A DNA stretch of 64,000 nucleotides from Pseudomonadota bacterium (GTDB lineage Bacteria > Desulfobacterota > Desulfobacteria > Desulfobacterales > Desulfolunaceae): the NCBI GenBank assembly GCA_018818835.1, contig JAHIRD010000024.1, forward strand, positions 1 to 64,000, in the 5' to 3' direction. Below, piece after piece: positions 7,498 to 17,797 of the stretch (the first letter of the stretch is position 1; every line of letters starts with the position of its first letter). Both the position numbers and the translations under genes were made by a program. Under the pieces are notes generated by a model. That model made no database searches. It saw nothing but the letters and a program-made list of their open reading frames with translations, and had not been told where the DNA came from.

Positions 7498-8463
7498 TCA
7501 TGGGTTGGGCTTATCGCCTGTGATTAAATGAACATGGCCGAGTCTGTCCATTTCAAAGATCATGGAACCGGCATGCCGGGTGTTGACAGCATGGGGGCAG
7601 ATCCTGGCATAGGGTGTTGTCAGGGGTGATATTTCCTTTATTCCCAGGTTCAAAATGGTGTATTCCGGTTTCATCAACTTGACCGCATCCATGTGGAATC
7701 CCCTGGCCTGGCCATGGTGTGATGCTTTTAAAATCGACGTGTTTTTTATGTCATCGGGACAGTCGGAAACAATTCGGCTCCAGATCTCTTTACTGGCATT
7801 ATTTCCAAGAATCATTTTACTTTTACCATAGCGAATGATCAGAACGCAGCTGGGCAACGCATCACCGTCCCTGGTGGATGAAGACCCACCTGCCGACGGC
7901 TGCGGGCTGATCACCTGGATGTCATAGGCATCGGAAGACTCAATCCTCCCCCCTGAACTGGGTGACTCCAAGCTGATATCAGGCCATGTTCCATGGCTGA
8001 GAAAGGCATAAAATTCCTGATCTTTTCCAAGAATGGGTTCTGACTTACCCGGGGTTTGATTGTTGACCCAGGGGGGAACCCATGCCGATGCAATTCCGAT
8101 ATCCCGGTTAAGCGCCCACAGGCCCGAGAAATAAGTGATATCCGGACGCGAGGAAATAAAACGAAGTCCATGGCGGGCATGGCCGTTTTTATTGATAAGG
8201 GCTTTGATGTATGGGATGGGGTCCGTGATCCGGACAGTGTATCCGGATCGTTTCAACAGGGTTTTGTAATCAATGGCCCCATAGGCATAAAGAAATCGTT
8301 CCCCATTAAATTGCCTTGGATTCCAGGCCTTGACCACATCCATAAGTGTTGCCCAGTCCATTTGTGAAGACCGATTAATATCAACCACTGTCAGACGGCT
8401 TTCCGCGTGTTCGATAATCGCACAGTCCCCCTGGCCGACATTGAGAGCGTGTATTCGAATCAT
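7498..8463 (-). CDS. ComEC/Rec2-like MBL-fold protein with a degenerate metal site
   Basis: This 321-residue cytosolic protein has the layout of ComEC/Rec2-like metallo-beta-lactamase-fold proteins that accompany accessory systems: N-terminal LNVGQGDCAIIEH, a VVDIN strand, and a C-terminal LKASHHG motif (about 246-251). The loop that normally carries HxDxDH reads SRPDITYFSG (about 105-114), keeping only one Asp, and the usual LGGDA reads LGNNA (about 219-223). Most metal ligands are therefore gone while the frame is full length. It is divergent from the restriction-like operon, with a 157-base gap holding a palindrome that could serve both promoters. A non-enzymatic role is inferred. Confidence 0.75.
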   Translation of the reverse strand: MIRIHALNVGQGDCAIIEHAESRLTVVDINRSSQMDWATLMDVVKAWNPRQFNGERFLYAYGAIDYKTLLKRSGYTVRITDPIPYIKALINKNGHARHGLRFISSRPDITYFSGLWALNRDIGIASAWVPPWVNNQTPGKSEPILGKDQEFYAFLSHGTWPDISLESPSSGGRIESSDAYDIQVISPQPSAGGSSSTRDGDALPSCVLIIRYGKSKMILGNNASKEIWSRIVSDCPDDIKNTSILKASHHGQARGFHMDAVKLMKPEYTILNLGIKEISPLTTPYARICPHAVNTRHAGSMIFEMDRLGHVHLITGDKPNP

Positions 8464-8571: not shown

Positions 8572-8640
8572 TATACTGCATCATTGAAAAAGTGATTGTC
8601 AAGGGAAAATCTCATTTTTATTGCAGTATAATATATACTG
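8572..8640. promoter_or_regulatory. Palindrome and spaced half-site upstream of the restriction-like operon
   Basis: A perfect interrupted palindrome CAGTATA-ATA-TATACTG lies at 8624-8640. A further half-site TATACTGCA lies at 8572-8580, so TGCAGTATA-type half-sites recur within 70 bases. The palindrome contains TATAAT (8627-8632) but no well-spaced -35. The position, 10 bases before the first ATG, fits an operator for a repressor or controller protein. No candidate regulator is evident in the operon. Confidence 0.45.
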
Positions 8641-8650
8641 TGCTAAAAAA

Positions 8651-9235
8651 ATGCATATGAGCACATTAAATACGATTTCAACGATTCAAAGCGGGTTCCA
8701 ATCGCGAACGAACATCAGGCCGGAGGAGGATGGGTCCCATGGTTTGATCCAGATCCGGGATCTCGATCCGGACACGCTGATATTGAAGAATTCAACCATG
8801 ATTCGATTCAATCCGATCCTGTCACGGAAGGACTGGGAACTCAAAGACGGGGACATCCTGTTCATGGCCCGGGGCGGGCGTAACTTTTCTGTGCTGATGC
8901 GAGACATTCCGGGTGGCGTCCTGGCCTCCGGGTGTTTTTTTATCATTCGACTAACATCCCCAAGGGTTCTGCATGACTATCTGTGCTGGTATCTGAACCA
9001 GGAGCCTGTGTCACAATACGTGAAACGAAAGACTGGTCGGGGTGTTCATATGCCTGTGGTCAAACGCTCTGTCCTGGAGGCCATTGATATCCCCATCCCT
9101 TCAAAGGATATCCAAAAAAAGATTATTGAACTCAACAGGCTCATGAACAAAGAGCAGGCTTTGCTTGTGTCTTTGGCAGAAAAACGGAAACAAATGATCA
9201 CCCATGCATGTTTGAATTCGGTGAACCATGAATAA
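8651..9235 (+). CDS. hsdS: Half-size type I restriction specificity subunit (HsdS-like, one target-recognition domain)
   Basis: This product of about 194 residues matches one half of an HsdS subunit. It has a single target-recognition domain (GSHGLIQIRDLDPD, GDILFMARGG, ASGCFFIIR, YLCWYLNQ, GRGVHMPVVKRSVLEAIDIPIPS) followed by one helical conserved region (QKKIIELNRLMNKEQALLVSLAEKR). Classical HsdS is about 400 residues with two such halves; half subunits can act as homodimers on symmetric sites. The frame extends upstream to a TTG at 8621, but that codon lies in the palindrome, so ATG at 8651 (or 8657) is preferred; neither has a clear Shine-Dalgarno. It overlaps hsdM by 8 bases, implying translational coupling. 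Confidence 0.75.
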   Translation: MHMSTLNTISTIQSGFQSRTNIRPEEDGSHGLIQIRDLDPDTLILKNSTMIRFNPILSRKDWELKDGDILFMARGGRNFSVLMRDIPGGVLASGCFFIIRLTSPRVLHDYLCWYLNQEPVSQYVKRKTGRGVHMPVVKRSVLEAIDIPIPSKDIQKKIIELNRLMNKEQALLVSLAEKRKQMITHACLNSVNHE

Positions 9236-10802
9236 CTGTGATCAGAAGACTGTGAGCGAAAAAACCCTCAGCAAATCGAGGCGAAACACTCTGTTCAATG
9301 CAGTTCGAAAGGCAATCGATACATTCCGTTGCGGCCTTGAGCCCAGCCAATTCAGGGATTATATCCTGACCCTTTTGTTTGTGAAATATTTGAGCGATTT
9401 TTACACATCCAAGGTCAGGGAATACAAAAAAAAATACGCAGGGGATACGGTGCGGGTTAACAGAGCCATGAACCTTGAGCGGTTTGTGATACCTGACATT
9501 GATATCCGGGACGATCAGGGTTTGGTGAGAGATCACTTTAAAGCAACCTTTGACAGTCTGTATGAACGACGATACAGGATAAATCTGGGTGAGATAATCA
9601 ATGCGGTGCTGGGACGTCTTGGGGATGCCAATACACATAAGCTCCATGATGTATTTTGTGCCATTGACTTCAATAATGAAGAGATTCTCGGAAAAATCCG
9701 TCAGAGGAACTCCCGATTGAAGAATCTTCTGGAGGATTTGAATCCCCTTGATCTGACAATGGAACCCATGAAGGGCCCGGATGGAATTGGAGCATTTTTT
9801 GAAGATCTGATAGATTATTTTGCATCAAAAGCCGGAAAGAAAATCCGTGGGTTTTACACCCCGGCAACTGTTTCGGAAACCCTTGCACGAATCATGGCAC
9901 CCCGGCCGGGAGATCGAATCTGCGACCCCACATGTGGCTCGGGATCATTGCTGATACGGACAGGCCTCCAGGTCGGATCCCATGACTATTCAATATTTGG
10001 TCAGGAAAAGGGCAGAGGGACCTGGGCTCTGTGCAAAATGAACATGTGCATGCATCAGATGGATTTGGCTCGCATTGAATGGGAAGATACACTCCGGCTT
10101 CCCCTTTTCGTGGATAATGAGACCCTGATGATCTTTGATGTGGTTGTTGCGAATCCCCCGTTTAACATGGATAAATGGGGGCAGGAGATGGCTGAACAAG
10201 ATAAGCACCGACGATTTAAACGGGGCATACCCCCTAAAAGCAAGGGCGATTGGGCCTTTGTTTCACATATGATCGCCATTGCCGAGGAAGGCCGGGGCCG
10301 GGTGGGGGTGATCGTTCCCCATGGCACCTTATTCAGGGGAGGGCAGGAAGGAAAAATCCGGGAAGCCTTAATCAATGAAAACATGCTTGATGCCGTGATC
10401 GGGCTTCCTGCCAACCTGCTTTACGACACGTTAATTCCTTCTGTCGTTCTGATTTTTGATAAAGCCAGATCCTTTCAAGGAAAGGATCCTGTATTATTCA
10501 TGGATGCCAGCATGGATTATGAAAAAAATTTAAACCGGAACCGGCTCAGGCAACAGGACATTGAAAAGATAGTCACCACCTTCCACGGGAAAAGGACCAT
10601 TGACCGGTTTTCTCGGCAGGTGCCTTATGCTGAAATAGCCAACAACGATTTCAATCTGAACATTCCCCTTTATGTGGATAGGATTGACGATGACCATGTG
10701 TACGATATGGGGGCGGTTCAATATGATATTGAAGGCATTAAAGCCACCCTTGTACGGACACAAAAGAAAATAGATAATTATCTAAAGGAGCTTGGGGTTT
10801 AA
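9228..10802 (+). CDS. hsdM: Type I restriction-modification N6-adenine methyltransferase subunit
   Basis: This 524-residue HsdM has an N-terminal helical domain (FRDYILTLLFVKYLSDFY), then the SAM-binding motif DPTCGSGSLL from residue 233 and the catalytic motif NPPF at about 309. Both are intact, so adenine methylation is likely if the subunit meets a functional specificity subunit. Length is normal for the family. It follows the half-size hsdS with an 8-base overlap, an S-M-R order rather than the common M-S-R or R-M-S. HsdR follows after 44 bases to its ATG. Confidence 0.9.
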   Translation: MNNCDQKTVSEKTLSKSRRNTLFNAVRKAIDTFRCGLEPSQFRDYILTLLFVKYLSDFYTSKVREYKKKYAGDTVRVNRAMNLERFVIPDIDIRDDQGLVRDHFKATFDSLYERRYRINLGEIINAVLGRLGDANTHKLHDVFCAIDFNNEEILGKIRQRNSRLKNLLEDLNPLDLTMEPMKGPDGIGAFFEDLIDYFASKAGKKIRGFYTPATVSETLARIMAPRPGDRICDPTCGSGSLLIRTGLQVGSHDYSIFGQEKGRGTWALCKMNMCMHQMDLARIEWEDTLRLPLFVDNETLMIFDVVVANPPFNMDKWGQEMAEQDKHRRFKRGIPPKSKGDWAFVSHMIAIAEEGRGRVGVIVPHGTLFRGGQEGKIREALINENMLDAVIGLPANLLYDTLIPSVVLIFDKARSFQGKDPVLFMDASMDYEKNLNRNRLRQQDIEKIVTTFHGKRTIDRFSRQVPYAEIANNDFNLNIPLYVDRIDDDHVYDMGAVQYDIEGIKATLVRTQKKIDNYLKELGV

Positions 10803-10846
10803 TCCAAGGGCAACCCAGGCACTCGTAATTGGGATTAAGAAACGAA

Positions 10847-13800
10847 ATGGAACATCATTCATACTATGGGCAGGATGCACCTGAATCTGATCTGAACCCG
10901 GAAAAGTCCTGGTCCCAGCTGACGGCATTGCACCTGTTGACCCAGATGGGGTGGGAGTACGTGTCCCCCGAACAATGCCTTGATCTCAGGAACGGTCAGC
11001 TGGATCAGGTACTTCTTGAATCCATTCTGACCGATTTTCTGCGCAGAAAGAGTTCCTATGAATTTAAAGGGTCTGTTCGTCTTTTTACGGAAAATGCAGT
11101 CCAGAGTGCGGTCCAGGCCCTGAAAGGGATCAGGGTCACGGGTGACATTCTTCAGAATTCACAGATGTACGATCTGTTGTGCCTTGGGACCGGCACTCCC
11201 CAGACCGTTGACGGAGATACCCGAAGTTATGTCATGAACTATATTGACTGGCAAGATCCCGAAAACAATCTTTACCATTTCACCCGGGACTTCAGGCTTG
11301 AGTGTCTGGATCACGGGTCACACGTCATTATTGATATCGTTCTTTTTGTCAATGGCATACCCATGTGTGTCATGGCATGCAGGGGTTCTGATGATGATCC
11401 GGTTAATGCGAACCCCATGGATCAGGCCATTGATGCGTTAGGGACATTACAGACCCATGAGCGTATTCCCCAGTTGTTTGTCTACAGTCAGATATTGCTG
11501 GCCTTGAATCGGGACGCGACCCGTTACAGTACAACAGGGACAAAAAAACAATTCTGGACCGTATGGAAAGAAGATGGGATTGATGCATTCATAAACGAAA
11601 TGATTCGTGCTCCCATGGACCTTGGAATGGCCCCTGAACTCATTTCAAGAGTGATGATGAGCAAGACATGGAGAAGCATGGCCGGGCAGAACAGGGACGT
11701 CGTTGAACAGGATCGGGCCCTTTATTCGCTGTGCCGGCCCGGACGATTTCTTGATTTGATATACCGATTTATCCTCTTTGATAAGGGGACGAAAATAATC
11801 GCCCGTTATTCCCAGTTCTTTACGGTCAAGAATTGTATAAATCGTCTCCTTGGCAGACCCAAGGGCAGGCCCCGGGGAGGGACGGTCTTGTATGCCCAGG
11901 GCAGCGGAAAATCCCTGACCATGGTGATGCTTGTCAAATCTCTGTTTCTGCATTCGGATCTTATACATGCCCATGTGGTTCTGGTGACTGATCGGATGGA
12001 TCTTGGGGACACCCTGGGAAGTGCATTGAGAGCCTGCGGTACAGATGTGGAGCAGGTATCCACAGGGAAGCATCTGGTGGCATTGCTCCGGGATCAAGGC
12101 AGGCATGTGATCATGTCACCCATGCATAAATTCGCAAAGGCTCTCTCCAACAGGGCCATCAAACACATATCACGGGATACCCTTGTGATTATGGACGAGG
12201 GACATCACCCTGCCCAGATGATCATGGCCATAAACGGTACCCGTGTGATTGGATTTTCCGGGGTACCTCTGGCACACATGGCTGAACATGATCTTTTCGG
12301 ATATGACAGAGACCTCATACCACCAGCCTATACGCTGAGCCGTGCAGTTGAAGATAAAACAGTGACACCACTTCTTTACGAAGAACGGCATGTTACCCAA
12401 GGTCTTGACGCAAAAAATTTGGAACGCTGGTTTAAAAAAATGACCTCGTGCCTGAACACGACCTGGAAAGATGCGCTGGCAAAAACGTTCATATATGAGC
12501 CAAGCCTTTGCAGGGAATACATGAACATTCGGATGATTGCCTGGGATATCAGCACTCATTTTGCCACAAGGTATCAGGGGACAGGGGGCAAAGGCCAGCT
12601 GGTCACACCGGATAAGGACACAGCTCTTTTATATAAAACGTTTCTGGATGAATTTGGTTTTGTGAATTCAACGGTACTGATTTCACATCCCTGGGAACGG
12701 GAAGGCGAGGATAACCAGGAACCCTCGCAGCAGACATTGCGTTTCTGGGAGGGCATGATGGCCCGGTACGGTTCGGAAAAGAAATATCACTCCCAGGTGG
12801 TCCATGGGTTCCAGCATGAACAATTTCCTGACATCATCATTGTCGTGGATAAGCTTATAACTACATTTCATGCACCTTGCAACGGTGTTCTCTATCTTGC
12901 ACGCGACCTCAAAGAACACACCCTTTTACGGGCCTTGGCCAGGGTGAACCAAGTTTTTCCTGGGAAAGAGTACGGCCTTGTCCTGGATTATCGTGGAGCC
13001 ATTCATGGTCAGAATAAATCATTGGCTTTTAATGGATTCATGGCAGATATTTCCGAAAAAACAGCAGATCTGCCTTTTTTGCATTCATCTGTATGGGAAT
13101 TGTTTTCAGGCATCAATAAATCCAAAGACACCGAAGTCTATGGTGTTTATTTGAGAAATGAACGCCTGAGGCGTACCTTTTACACTCGTTTCGGGCATTA
13201 TGCCCGGGTCCTGGCTCTTGCCTTGTCATCATCGACATTTCTCAGGTCAACACCCGGGAAGACCCTTAACTTATATAAGAAGGATCTTTCATTTTTTCTG
13301 AATTTAAGGGCGGTCCTGTCAAAGAGGTTTCAGGAAAAAAACGATTTTTCCGAGTATGAACCCGTGATTAATAAACTGCTGGATACCCATATAGAGCCTG
13401 GCGGGTCCATGCAGGATTACGAACCACTTCACCTGTTAAATACCGATGAACGGCTCAATGTTTTTGGGGATCAAGGCCTGAGTGATCCATTTAAAGCAGA
13501 TATGATCGCCATGGCAACCCGCAACATTATCCTTGGACACATGGAAAAAGATCCGGCCTTTTATAAAAAATTATCACGGCGTCTCGAAAAGGTCATCTCG
13601 GGGTTTCATGGAAACACAATCAACACAGTCAAGGCCCTTGGGTCGATTAAAGACATCGCGGAAAAAGTTTCAACCCATGTGGATGAAGACCTGCCCCCCG
13701 ATCTTCTGGCTCAGCCCTTGGCCAGACAATTTTACGGATGTCTCAGAGAACCCATGGCTGAATACGCGGGTGGTAACACCCGTACTGGAATTGATGTCGC

Positions 13801-13999
13801 CCTTGAGGTTGAAAAACGGATTTTACCCTTTAAAACCAGAAACTGGAAAACAAACCCCGATGTGATCAACAGAATTCGGAGGGAAATCGATGATATTCTT
13901 TTTGAAATGGTATCCACCCGGAGAATAGAGCTGCCGGTGGAAGAACATGATGCCATTATTGAACGCTGCATAGAGATATCGAAAGAAAATGAAAAATAG
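10847..13999 (+). CDS. hsdR: HsdR-like type I restriction subunit with altered nuclease and helicase motifs
   Basis: This product of 1050 residues aligns in order with HsdR: N-terminal nuclease-like domain, SF2 translocase, C-terminal helical domain. The Walker A loop is intact (AQGSGKS, about 350-356). Other key sites differ from the family consensus. The PD-(D/E)xK core keeps Asp (IDIVLFVNG, about 163), but the ExK positions read ACR (about 177-179). DEAH reads DEGH (about 450-453), TGTP reads SGVP, and the ARVNR motif reads ARVNQ. The frame is uninterrupted, so this is not a simple frameshifted pseudogene. DNA cleavage appears unlikely; DNA binding or ATP-dependent movement remain possible. 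The ATG at 10847 is chosen over TTG at 10829; no strong ribosome site is visible for either. Confidence 0.85.
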   Translation: MEHHSYYGQDAPESDLNPEKSWSQLTALHLLTQMGWEYVSPEQCLDLRNGQLDQVLLESILTDFLRRKSSYEFKGSVRLFTENAVQSAVQALKGIRVTGDILQNSQMYDLLCLGTGTPQTVDGDTRSYVMNYIDWQDPENNLYHFTRDFRLECLDHGSHVIIDIVLFVNGIPMCVMACRGSDDDPVNANPMDQAIDALGTLQTHERIPQLFVYSQILLALNRDATRYSTTGTKKQFWTVWKEDGIDAFINEMIRAPMDLGMAPELISRVMMSKTWRSMAGQNRDVVEQDRALYSLCRPGRFLDLIYRFILFDKGTKIIARYSQFFTVKNCINRLLGRPKGRPRGGTVLYAQGSGKSLTMVMLVKSLFLHSDLIHAHVVLVTDRMDLGDTLGSALRACGTDVEQVSTGKHLVALLRDQGRHVIMSPMHKFAKALSNRAIKHISRDTLVIMDEGHHPAQMIMAINGTRVIGFSGVPLAHMAEHDLFGYDRDLIPPAYTLSRAVEDKTVTPLLYEERHVTQGLDAKNLERWFKKMTSCLNTTWKDALAKTFIYEPSLCREYMNIRMIAWDISTHFATRYQGTGGKGQLVTPDKDTALLYKTFLDEFGFVNSTVLISHPWEREGEDNQEPSQQTLRFWEGMMARYGSEKKYHSQVVHGFQHEQFPDIIIVVDKLITTFHAPCNGVLYLARDLKEHTLLRALARVNQVFPGKEYGLVLDYRGAIHGQNKSLAFNGFMADISEKTADLPFLHSSVWELFSGINKSKDTEVYGVYLRNERLRRTFYTRFGHYARVLALALSSSTFLRSTPGKTLNLYKKDLSFFLNLRAVLSKRFQEKNDFSEYEPVINKLLDTHIEPGGSMQDYEPLHLLNTDERLNVFGDQGLSDPFKADMIAMATRNIILGHMEKDPAFYKKLSRRLEKVISGFHGNTINTVKALGSIKDIAEKVSTHVDEDLPPDLLAQPLARQFYGCLREPMAEYAGGNTRTGIDVALEVEKRILPFKTRNWKTNPDVINRIRREIDDILFEMVSTRRIELPVEEHDAIIERCIEISKENEK

Positions 14000-14325
14000 G
14001 CTTGATGAGTCTTTGACGTTTGAAGCGGTAGGGTCATACTGTGAAAAGGATATTGATTTAAACATACGCCTCGGAAATTCTTTTCTCAAGATATCACCAC
14101 AAGGCATAGGCGGCCACTGAAATCTATATTGGCCTTAACGGCATTTTCCCGAAGAACCATAAAAATACACACTAAAGCCAAGGATCACTGGCGCGATGAA
14201 TGAGAGTCCAGTCCAATGGATCCGTGAGATATTTCCTTGACGAAGACAAAATCACACTTTAATATACACATATTATTTCATAACAACGAGACATATTTTT
14301 CCTCTATTTGAATAACGATAAGCCC
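14000..14325. other. Intergenic region upstream of the MtlD-SIR2 operon
   Basis: About 325 bases with no convincing gene. It holds the promoter annotated at 14237-14265. No terminator hairpin with a T tract follows hsdR, so readthrough from the restriction-like operon into the next operon is possible. Confidence 0.5.
14237..14265 (+). promoter_or_regulatory. Probable sigma-70 promoter of the MtlD-SIR2 operon
   Basis: A -35 box TTGACG (14237-14242) and a -10 box TAATAT (14260-14265) are separated by 17 bases, in AT-rich DNA about 60 bases before the ATG at 14326. This would let the operon be expressed independently of the upstream restriction-like genes. Confidence 0.55.
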
Positions 14326-16701
14326 ATGAAAAAAAAGATTCTAATCATTGGCGCCGGGGCCATTGGAAGAGGCTTTGCAGCCAAGATATTCAGCGACGCG
14401 GGATACACACTGTCATTTGTGGAGAATGACCCCCTTGTGTATGAAGAACTCAAGGCCCGGCATTCTTACATGACAGCCATTGCATCAGGAAACCGTTATG
14501 AAGAGGTCATTATTCATTATGATAAGGTTTTCATTTCAACCATCAAAGCCCAAGAGTATATCAAGGAGTGCGATGCCGTAATTACGGCTGTTGGACCGGA
14601 AAATTGCAAACAGTTGAGTTGCAATTTAAAGAGTGCTAAATGCATATATATCCTTGAAAATGACATTAATATAATAAAAATCATCAAAGAAACATCAGAA
14701 AATCCCAATGTGTTTTTCGGTATACCCGATGTTATTGCATCCAATACCGCCTCCCCTGAGTTGCTAAAAAAAGATTCTTTATGCGTTGTCACTGAAACAG
14801 GCCGCCTTGTTCTTGAAAAAAGTCCCTGTGAGCTGGTTAAAAGCCCTGACATAGACATTGTCGATGAAAAGGAGCTGCTCAAGCACTGGTGGTGTAAATT
14901 TTACATTCACAATGCCCCCCACGCCATAACAGCCTATTTAGGGGCTTTAAAAGACTATGTTTATATCCATCAAGCCATGGCTGACCCCAAAATATCCGGG
15001 GTCGTTATTAATGCCATGAACCTCATGGCAAAGGCCGTGGCAATGGACAACCGTGTTTCCGAAGACCTGGCTGAAGATTATAAAACCAAGGAACTTCTCC
15101 GGTTCAGCAATAACTTGATGTATGACCCGATTTCCAGGGTTGCCCGGGATCCCTTAAGGAAACTGGATTCAAACGAACGACTTATTCAGGCTCTGTTGAT
15201 TGCAAAAAAATATGGCTTGAACACCCAGCCCTTTCTTATGGGCGTTAAGGCTGCCCTGAATTATAAAAAAGGAGTCACCCGGGAGGACAAACGATTTGAG
15301 GATCACATTGAAAAGAAAGGAACGGAAAATTTTGTTGGTGAGATTTGCGAGATTAAGGATAGCTTGAGAGATGAAATTATCGGTACTCAGGTCAATGACA
15401 TTATTCTTAGAAATAAGGTAATTCTGCTCATGGGGGCCGGAGCAAGTTCATTGCTGGGTTTTCCATTGCTTAAGGAATTGCTGGACAATGAAATGAGTGA
15501 ATATCACCCGGAAGAATCGAGTGACCGTTTGCAATGCCGCCGGTGCGTATTCTCAGGCGAAGATCAGATTGAAACAAAAGCCAATCAGGACCTTTTGACG
15601 GCATACGGTCTTGTCAGAGATCTCTGGGAACGCGGTAAAGCCCATGGTGGGTCACTCGAAGAATTAATGGGCCAGCTGATCAGGTATATTCAGGAAACGG
15701 ACAAGCTTAAACAGGACCGGTTTGTCCAGAATATCATCGGCAATTGCTCGGACATGATCGATCCCTTTGTCGATTCGTGCAACAGTGCTCTTTCATTGTG
15801 CTATACCATGCTCGCCAAGTATTATAACCACGAATCAAGCCTTTATAAAAAGGGCATATACACCGAACATGATTTGTATAAAAAAGGCTCGGAGAATTAC
15901 CGGAAAGCCGAGAAAATCATTTCCCTCTTATCAAAACTCGCCGGTTTTAACAAAACCAATGGTGTTGCACAGCCGTTACAATTGTTTACAACAAATTACG
16001 ATACGTTTTTTTATTTTATTTCAGATATCGATAGCCAGGATATCCATATATGTAATTCCATTCCCGAGCCGCCACTGTCCGAAAAAGTGTATCTTTCCCC
16101 GGAGCCGGAGATCATTACCCATGATAAGGTGAACGCAGAAACAAAACAACATGTCGTTGTCCATCGTATGCATGGCTGTGTTGCCTGGTTTATGCATGAA
16201 AAAGACAAAATGCGGCAGATCAAGATGGAAACCCTTGGCGAATTGGACCGTAAGATCGCAGGGCTTGATAAAAAATTTCGTGTCATGGGAAATGTATTCC
16301 TGAACCGAATGGTCATCAAACTGCTTTCGGATAATACCATCCTGGGCAAATATCCATTTACCCAGGAATATGAAGAATTTAACAAATCTCTTAAGGATTC
16401 ATCGGCGCTGATCGTGTGGGGGTTCAGCTTCAGGGATGCTGAAATCGTTCGAAAAATCCAGGAAGCCTGGACCCAAAGCAGGGGGCGATTGAAAATATAC
16501 TACATTGACCCCTACCTCAGCAAAGATAAAGCAACGGATAATATTCGGCGAACACTTGAAACCATTCCCGGACATGGGGGAGACAACAATTTCAGGGTTC
16601 AACGGATTCACTGGTCCGTAAACAATTCAATCGACGTTTTAAAAGATAATATTCTTTCTGCTTTAAACAAATCAAGGATGGTGAACCATGAAACAGAGTA
16701 A
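14326..16701 (+). CDS. Fusion of mannitol-1-phosphate dehydrogenase-like domain with C-terminal SIR2 domain
   Basis: This 791-residue protein has two parts. Residues 1-350 resemble mannitol-1-phosphate 5-dehydrogenase: Rossmann loop GAGAIGRGF (about 14-22), the catalytic Lys-x4-Asn-x2-His pattern (K191, N196, H199) before AITAYLGALKDY, a DPKI segment and RDPLRKL. Residues 355-785 resemble SIR2-type NADases: LMGAGASSLLGFPL (about 369), TTNYD with N557 and D559, MHGCVAW with H616, and WGFSFRDAEI near the C-terminus. Both active sites look intact. Such SIR2 domains deplete NAD in anti-phage systems. I do not know a described fusion of this kind. The ATG at 14326 begins the Rossmann strand directly; a TTG at 14308 adds six residues. 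It overlaps the next gene by 14 bases. Confidence 0.85.
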   Translation: MKKKILIIGAGAIGRGFAAKIFSDAGYTLSFVENDPLVYEELKARHSYMTAIASGNRYEEVIIHYDKVFISTIKAQEYIKECDAVITAVGPENCKQLSCNLKSAKCIYILENDINIIKIIKETSENPNVFFGIPDVIASNTASPELLKKDSLCVVTETGRLVLEKSPCELVKSPDIDIVDEKELLKHWWCKFYIHNAPHAITAYLGALKDYVYIHQAMADPKISGVVINAMNLMAKAVAMDNRVSEDLAEDYKTKELLRFSNNLMYDPISRVARDPLRKLDSNERLIQALLIAKKYGLNTQPFLMGVKAALNYKKGVTREDKRFEDHIEKKGTENFVGEICEIKDSLRDEIIGTQVNDIILRNKVILLMGAGASSLLGFPLLKELLDNEMSEYHPEESSDRLQCRRCVFSGEDQIETKANQDLLTAYGLVRDLWERGKAHGGSLEELMGQLIRYIQETDKLKQDRFVQNIIGNCSDMIDPFVDSCNSALSLCYTMLAKYYNHESSLYKKGIYTEHDLYKKGSENYRKAEKIISLLSKLAGFNKTNGVAQPLQLFTTNYDTFFYFISDIDSQDIHICNSIPEPPLSEKVYLSPEPEIITHDKVNAETKQHVVVHRMHGCVAWFMHEKDKMRQIKMETLGELDRKIAGLDKKFRVMGNVFLNRMVIKLLSDNTILGKYPFTQEYEEFNKSLKDSSALIVWGFSFRDAEIVRKIQEAWTQSRGRLKIYYIDPYLSKDKATDNIRRTLETIPGHGGDNNFRVQRIHWSVNNSIDVLKDNILSALNKSRMVNHETE

Positions 16702-17797
16702 TCCTAAAAATAAGACCCAAAGTCCTTTGAAGGATAGGCCATTGGATGAAAAACAATTGAAAACTCGAATTGAACAATTAGAAAAAGTAAACGAACAATT
16801 CAGGCAGGACAGAGATCTTCTTGATAAAATGCTGCAACAACGAGCTATCTTGCAGCGGGGGGACTATATATCAACAAAACTGGAATCCGCTTCATCCGAT
16901 GACAGCGAAAGTACACCCTGTTCGGATTATAAACTTGTGATTGCAGAGGTTGTTGCCCGGGAATCGGAATTTGACTTTGAAGAAAATGAAGCTGCGAATA
17001 CCGATAAGCCTCTTTTTGTCGAAGATTTTGATTCAGTTTTACTGGATGCCGGAAGTACCATTGAACGGATTGCCCAGCAATTGTTTGAGCACCGAAAATA
17101 TTTGACCATCTTGACGAATAACATGGGGGTGTGGGCCAATTTTTGTGGCACAACCGCTAAAAGCCTGAAAGAATTGCTGGAAGAATTAAAAAAAACAACC
17201 GGAAAAGCCTCACGTGCTCAGAAATACAGTACCAGCCAGAAAATAAGCGAAATTCAGGCGAAAAACGAATTGGTCCTCACCGGGGGACGGTATGCGCAAA
17301 TGTACGATTCCCTCTTGGGCGATCAGACCATCAAGGCCTTTGAAACATTTTCTCCAAGTATTGTGATCATAGGCACCAGTGGTATTATTGCCGATGAAGG
17401 TTTGTTTTGCCATGGGGGAGAGGAGTCCAATGTCAAAAAGCACCTGTGGAACACAAAGACATCAAAGCGCATAATCGCCACATCCAGCGAGAAAATCGGA
17501 AAACGCGATTCACACCGGTTCGGCGACATACAGAAATCAAAATCCTATCTTGATGGAGAAGGTACAGAAACCATATTAATCACCGATCGAAACCGACGCC
17601 TGAACAATGATAATGACTATATCCGGGAATATGAGAAGCTGAAAAAATATTTATATATCATTGAAGTGGAATGCCATAGGGAAGAGGGCGGTGATTATTT
17701 TGCATATTTATATTCTTCAAAATTAAAAGATGATAAACTGTTGAAAAAAATTAAGTTGAAACAATCTAAACCTGAGTTGCTCATGGGCGATGATTAA
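16688..17797 (+). CDS. DeoR-type sugar-phosphate sensor domain protein with N-terminal coiled coil, no HTH
   Basis: This 369-residue protein contains the C-terminal ligand-binding fold of DeoR/GlpR regulators: [15 protein letters not shown] (about 118-132), TILTNN (140-145), LVLTGGRY (195-202), a [11 protein letters not shown] segment, [14 protein letters not shown] (227-240) and an ESNVKK helix. The N-terminus is a charged heptad-like helix ([15 protein letters not shown], about 24-38) where a DeoR helix-turn-helix would sit. An insertion at about 150-190 and a C-terminal extension (290-369) are also unusual. The start has AGGA nine bases upstream and lies inside the end of the MtlD-SIR2 gene, so the two are co-translated. 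A regulatory subunit sensing a phosphorylated sugar is inferred. It overlaps pgi tail to tail by 17 bases. Confidence 0.7.

Follow-up and report, generated by a model that had tools for sequence, protein, structure and literature searches.

HsdR is usually discussed as a cutter, with a motor in the service of cutting. The question raised by the window (the whole 64,000-nucleotide stretch of DNA that was analysed) is why an hsdR gene should remain open over its full length with the nuclease residues and several helicase motifs replaced. The earlier note had offered either a different function or a very recent loss of selection. As judged from the sequence, restriction has almost certainly been lost in the window operon, and the data support the retention of the hsdR frame under selection. 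The explanation we favour, at about even odds, is that the full-length product was kept under selection for most of its divergence, probably in a role other than cutting.

The hsdR gene, its operon and its relatives

The hsdR frame, found as an open reading frame and assigned by profiles and alignment, lies on the forward strand and runs without interruption from the ATG at 10847 to the stop at 13999 (an in-frame TTG at 10829 is also present upstream), in agreement with the 1050 stop-free codons reported before. The 1050-residue product, which lacks the nuclease E and K and is altered in motifs III, V and VI, matches HSDR_N (Pfam, 84.2 bits with a cut-off of 25.1), SWI2_SNF2 and T1R_D3-like domains. 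With the NCBIfam hsdR model it scores 276, below the cut-off of 284.55, and the C-terminal helical domain T1RH-like_C gives 21 bits, under the cut-off of 26.8; the invariant sites of that region are better kept. The top Foldseek match of the predicted structure is 2w00 (the EcoR124I HsdR fold family); the model is mediocre (pLDDT 65.7, pTM 0.40) and was used for strand placement only. The gene encodes an R subunit and belongs to a Type I restriction-modification operon of Desulfobacterales (half-length HsdS, HsdM, HsdR). The family is ordinary and the state is unusual; the observation is real, with one item (motif II, below) corrected.

hsdR is the last gene of the operon. The first encodes S-prime, a half-length HsdS-like protein of 204 residues with one recognition domain (8621–9235, forward strand, from ORF and profiles; the start is likely ATG 8651 or 8657), and its 3' end overlaps the start of hsdM by 8 bases. 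HsdM (524 residues, 9228–10802, forward strand, from profiles and alignment) has the SAM motif DPTCGSG and the catalytic motif NPPF intact, and differs at 30 of 151 family-invariant sites (20%; the worst outgroup shows 14%, scored on a different set of 178 sites). The 44-base gap between hsdM and hsdR (10803–10846, forward strand) holds no good Shine-Dalgarno sequence for hsdR, while the relatives have one. The usual order in most relatives is S-prime, HsdM, accessory genes, full-length HsdS, HsdR and YgjP. Neither YgjP nor a full-length, two-domain HsdS is found at the window locus, although most relatives have both, and the single-domain S-prime stands alone. Their absence does not by itself mean decay, because similar layouts occur at L069 (HsdM and HsdR 69 bases apart, motifs intact) and L065 (hsdS stretch divided into two frames). 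In an engineered system, a half-length HsdS can work as a dimer, and together with HsdM forms an active methylase that restricts once HsdR is supplied (PMC6158711).

A half-length, single-domain HsdS-like gene directly 5' of hsdM is kept across this Type I clade, mostly beside a full-length HsdS (window 8621–9235; L032, L033, L035–L040, L061–L065, L068–L070, L072, L073, L076, L077). The gene divergent to S-prime differs among relatives. In the window it is metallo-beta-lactamase-fold-like (7498–8463, reverse strand), with homologues equally placed in L061 and L064; a DncV-like nucleotidyltransferase (L072:3295–4239) and an ERCC4-nuclease-like frame (L069:8852–9535) are found elsewhere, all three being recognised by eye. 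Downstream of hsdR, a 797-residue frame (14308–16701) joins mannitol-1-phosphate dehydrogenase-like domains to a C-terminal SIR2-like domain, which weakly matches an anti-phage SIR2 family, and is followed by a DeoR-type sensor-domain protein (16688–17797).

The source genome comprises 6.75 Mb in 334 contigs. The window HsdR is present there in a single copy, and there are two further Type I-like loci (contigs C254 and C156), each with R, M and S genes of its own. Scanning 84,980 species genomes twice, together with ~780 sampled genomes of the phylum and order, viral contigs and plasmid DNA, gave no relative above ~52% identity. Most relatives that carry a name in public records are MAGs of Desulfobacterales, and the ~20 closest, 48–52% identical, have intact helicase motifs.

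Constraint on the frame and the question of decay

In the window HsdR, 34 of the 143 sites that are invariant in 35 other HsdRs are changed (24%), against at most 6.4% in every other homologue, scored by leave-one-out; the motif changes are not due to chance. Since the closest relatives otherwise keep the motifs intact, the constraint on this copy is altered. Its end branch is ~1.7–1.9 long, compared to a median near 0.19 for the relatives (~9-fold), and AU tests tolerate several positions for it within the clade. The genome may be evolving fast overall; no acceleration is seen in S-prime of the same operon, which counts against this. PGI was tried as a control for a fast genome and was unusable, as the hits mix PGI types (63% for one genome and 38–40% for the rest). 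The wear is uneven: changes are rarer at the two ends (the first 99 and the last 310 residues) than within residues 100–740 (7/72 versus 55/204, p = 0.003), the domain boundaries and contrasts having been picked after the counts were inspected.

The S, M and R frames are all open, and the GC pattern by coding position is normal. When all clade-invariant changes are taken as neutral, simulated drift to the observed number of them gives ~11.7 expected stops in HsdR and ~5.4 in HsdM (~17 together), with none observed; with the neutral share at a quarter of the changes or lower, zero stops in HsdR alone would have P ~0.06. For the window branch, a codon model rejects omega = 1 in HsdR (2dlnL 98) as well as in HsdM (2dlnL 55); saturated dS makes the omega value itself unobtainable. 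Synonymous sites are saturated against the relatives, and weak present-day selection is beyond the reach of dN/dS here. The window hsdR has probably not been dead DNA for most of its history. Of the choice offered by the earlier note, the retained frame is borne out and a different function is what we infer from it. A very recent onset of neutrality is in poor agreement with the data, since a frame with this many motif changes should have gained stops, and since omega = 1 is rejected on the branch.

A slow decay is a serious rival, close behind retention, and we hold it to be somewhat short of an even chance. Here the operon would be dying after the loss of the full-length HsdS, with selection on HsdM and HsdR long relaxed though not absent, the open frame being partly luck and the protein having no present function. 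The long end branch is in accordance with such a course, as is the modest surprise of zero HsdR stops if few of the changes were neutral. The wear of HsdM, the missing hsdS and YgjP and the poor hsdR Shine-Dalgarno sequence also speak for decay and against retention; the operon would moreover be dispensable, as the genome has two more Type I-like systems. Against decay stand the absence of stops from all three genes and the rejection of omega = 1. The only clearly broken relative (L067, G654:C46) has also decayed in the ordinary way, with an in-frame TAG in hsdR, a short hsdM and intact helicase motifs.

Motor motifs and the nuclease site

The helicase features, placed by alignment, all lie on the forward strand. 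The Walker A core GSGKS (residues 352–356, 11900–11914) is intact, as noted earlier, with the preceding WHT changed to LYA (W348L, H349Y, T350A), and the Ia-like VTDR is also intact. Motif II reads DEGH (12194–12205) and is followed by R454H and an in-frame deletion of 6 residues. The earlier note counted DEGH as an alteration; the alignment rejects this, as DEGH is the norm of the clade, found in all the closest relatives and in L012, L034 and L088, with DESH, DEAH or DECH in other homologues. Its readings of motifs III and VI were correct: SGVP replaces TGTP in the former (12257–12268; T471S, T473V), and RALARVNQ replaces QAIARVNR in the latter (12929–12952; Q695R, R702Q), with loss of R702, presumably the second arginine of the motif. 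In motif V, TTFHAP is found in place of TGFDAP (12860–12877; G673T, D675H). The joint loss of motifs III, V and VI is confined to the window among the homologues compared; the sole other odd motif III in a close relative is FTGTA in L076. Since these three motifs and their surroundings are altered, the ATP-driven motor of the window HsdR is very probably dead. A divergent motor that still hydrolyses ATP with a tolerant motif set and no nuclease seems improbable to us. In its favour are the intact Walker A, motif II and Ia-like sequences and a putative precedent in two nuclease-dead relatives (L072 and L073, below), but the six substitutions in motifs III, V and VI strike residues kept in nearly all the other homologues examined.

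In a phmmer search against the PDB, IIDIVLFVNGIPMCVMACRG of the window HsdR pairs with a 20-residue stretch of EcoR124I, with D163, A177 and R179 equivalent to D151, E165 and K167, respectively. The conserved acidic residue of the PD-ExK site is kept (D163, 11333–11335, forward strand), with an additional change beside it (P162I), and E-x-K is replaced by A177-C178-R179 (codons GCA TGC AGG, 11375–11383, forward strand), which confirms the change to ACR described previously. In the predicted model D163 lies inside the strand 159–168 and residue 177 directly follows the strand 171–176. Nearly all relatives have D...ECK in these columns, no other ExK fits, and among ~50 distinct genome-locus HsdRs and the readable viral-contig homologues, ExK is missing only in the window, L072 and L073. 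With E changed to A and K to R (E177A, K179R), we infer that the nuclease site is dead. An artefact of assembly, frameshift or column assignment, with the real ExK elsewhere, is hardly credible even for a 334-contig assembly, as the columns are the same with EcoR124I and ~50 homologues (alignment excludes a misassigned column), the substitutions are scattered, the gaps are in frame and the frame is open.

A proposed non-cutting subunit and its comparison with known systems

In the clade relatives with a readable stretch, ECK is present in all but two. The HsdR of L072 (L072:8079–11294; MAG SURF_4, Desulfobacteraceae according to its record) has ACR and that of L073 (L073:341–3553) has TCR, both with intact helicase motifs. 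Their operons are full, with a nearly unchanged HsdM, S-prime and a full-length HsdS, and their lost invariant sites cluster in the first 260 residues when compared with the motor (11/62 versus 8/160, p = 0.0055; this contrast, too, was picked after the counts were inspected). As to whether relatives share the changes, raised in the earlier note, the A/T-x-R motif is shared with these two, while the helicase motifs are otherwise intact in the closest relatives and no close relative has the motor-dead state. A Lentisphaerae MAG (L088) has an HsdR 68% identical to that of L072, which suggests inter-phylum transfer or misbinning.

The EcoR124I variants E165A, E165H and K167A lose most or all restriction and retain translocation (PMC2602864), so nuclease-only loss is viable, and translocation without cleavage is expected of L072 and L073. 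From their motifs, the loss of the nuclease with retention of the protein appears to have occurred naturally in the HsdR family. In a narrow search of open-access full text, no naturally occurring HsdR was found to combine a dead nuclease with an intact motor; this speaks weakly for novelty. A common descent of the A-x-R motif is possible. The motif codons agree between the window, L072 and L073 (ATG, then GCA/GCG/ACG, respectively, then TGC AGG), one quick tree groups the three with a support of 63, and the shared unique residues are slightly enriched (5/24). With the motif columns removed, AU tests (p 0.457 and 0.225) neither reject nor show common descent. The window copy may descend from a form like that of L072 and L073, or its nuclease may have been lost independently.

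If the protein was retained in a non-cutting role, loss of the nuclease would probably have preceded that of the motor, by analogy with L072 and L073, where the motor is still present. Because the full-length product was kept over most of the divergence, a service without cutting is probable. In the simplest case the part of HsdR would be structural or regulatory: its C-terminal region, which is the better preserved, would attach it to HsdM, and the complex, with the half-length HsdS as third member, would methylate at most. That Type I systems pass stepwise to non-cutting forms, from a nuclease-free, sequence-directed translocase (L072, L073) to a motor-free structural or regulatory HsdR of a methylase (the window), is a more doubtful proposal, which we consider unlikely. 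Nuclease-less HsdRs that bear a motor, and one apparently without both whose frame is kept, would show that a role other than restriction can be selected; methylation-linked regulation and a roadblock are candidates for such roles of Type I complexes. The operons of L072 and L073 make a role of this kind open to ATPase, translocation and plating assays.

Compared with intact Desulfobacterales Type I systems of its clade, such as L062, L061, L063 and L070, the window has the same order of S-prime, HsdM and HsdR, and an HsdR 50–52% identical over its full length that also has DEGH, but it does not keep their ECK, FTGTP, (T/V)GFDAP and QAIARVNR. Most intact systems of the clade also have the full-length HsdS and YgjP, which the window is without. 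L072 and L073 have in common with it the A-x-R or T-x-R motif with the D kept; however, the window differs from them in the helicase motifs, intact in both, in HsdM, hardly changed there, and in the full-length HsdS. EcoR124I HsdR belongs to the same fold family and has the same catalytic columns at ~14% identity in structural alignment, and its E165 and K167 variants, unlike the window HsdR, are laboratory single-site mutants with an intact motor.
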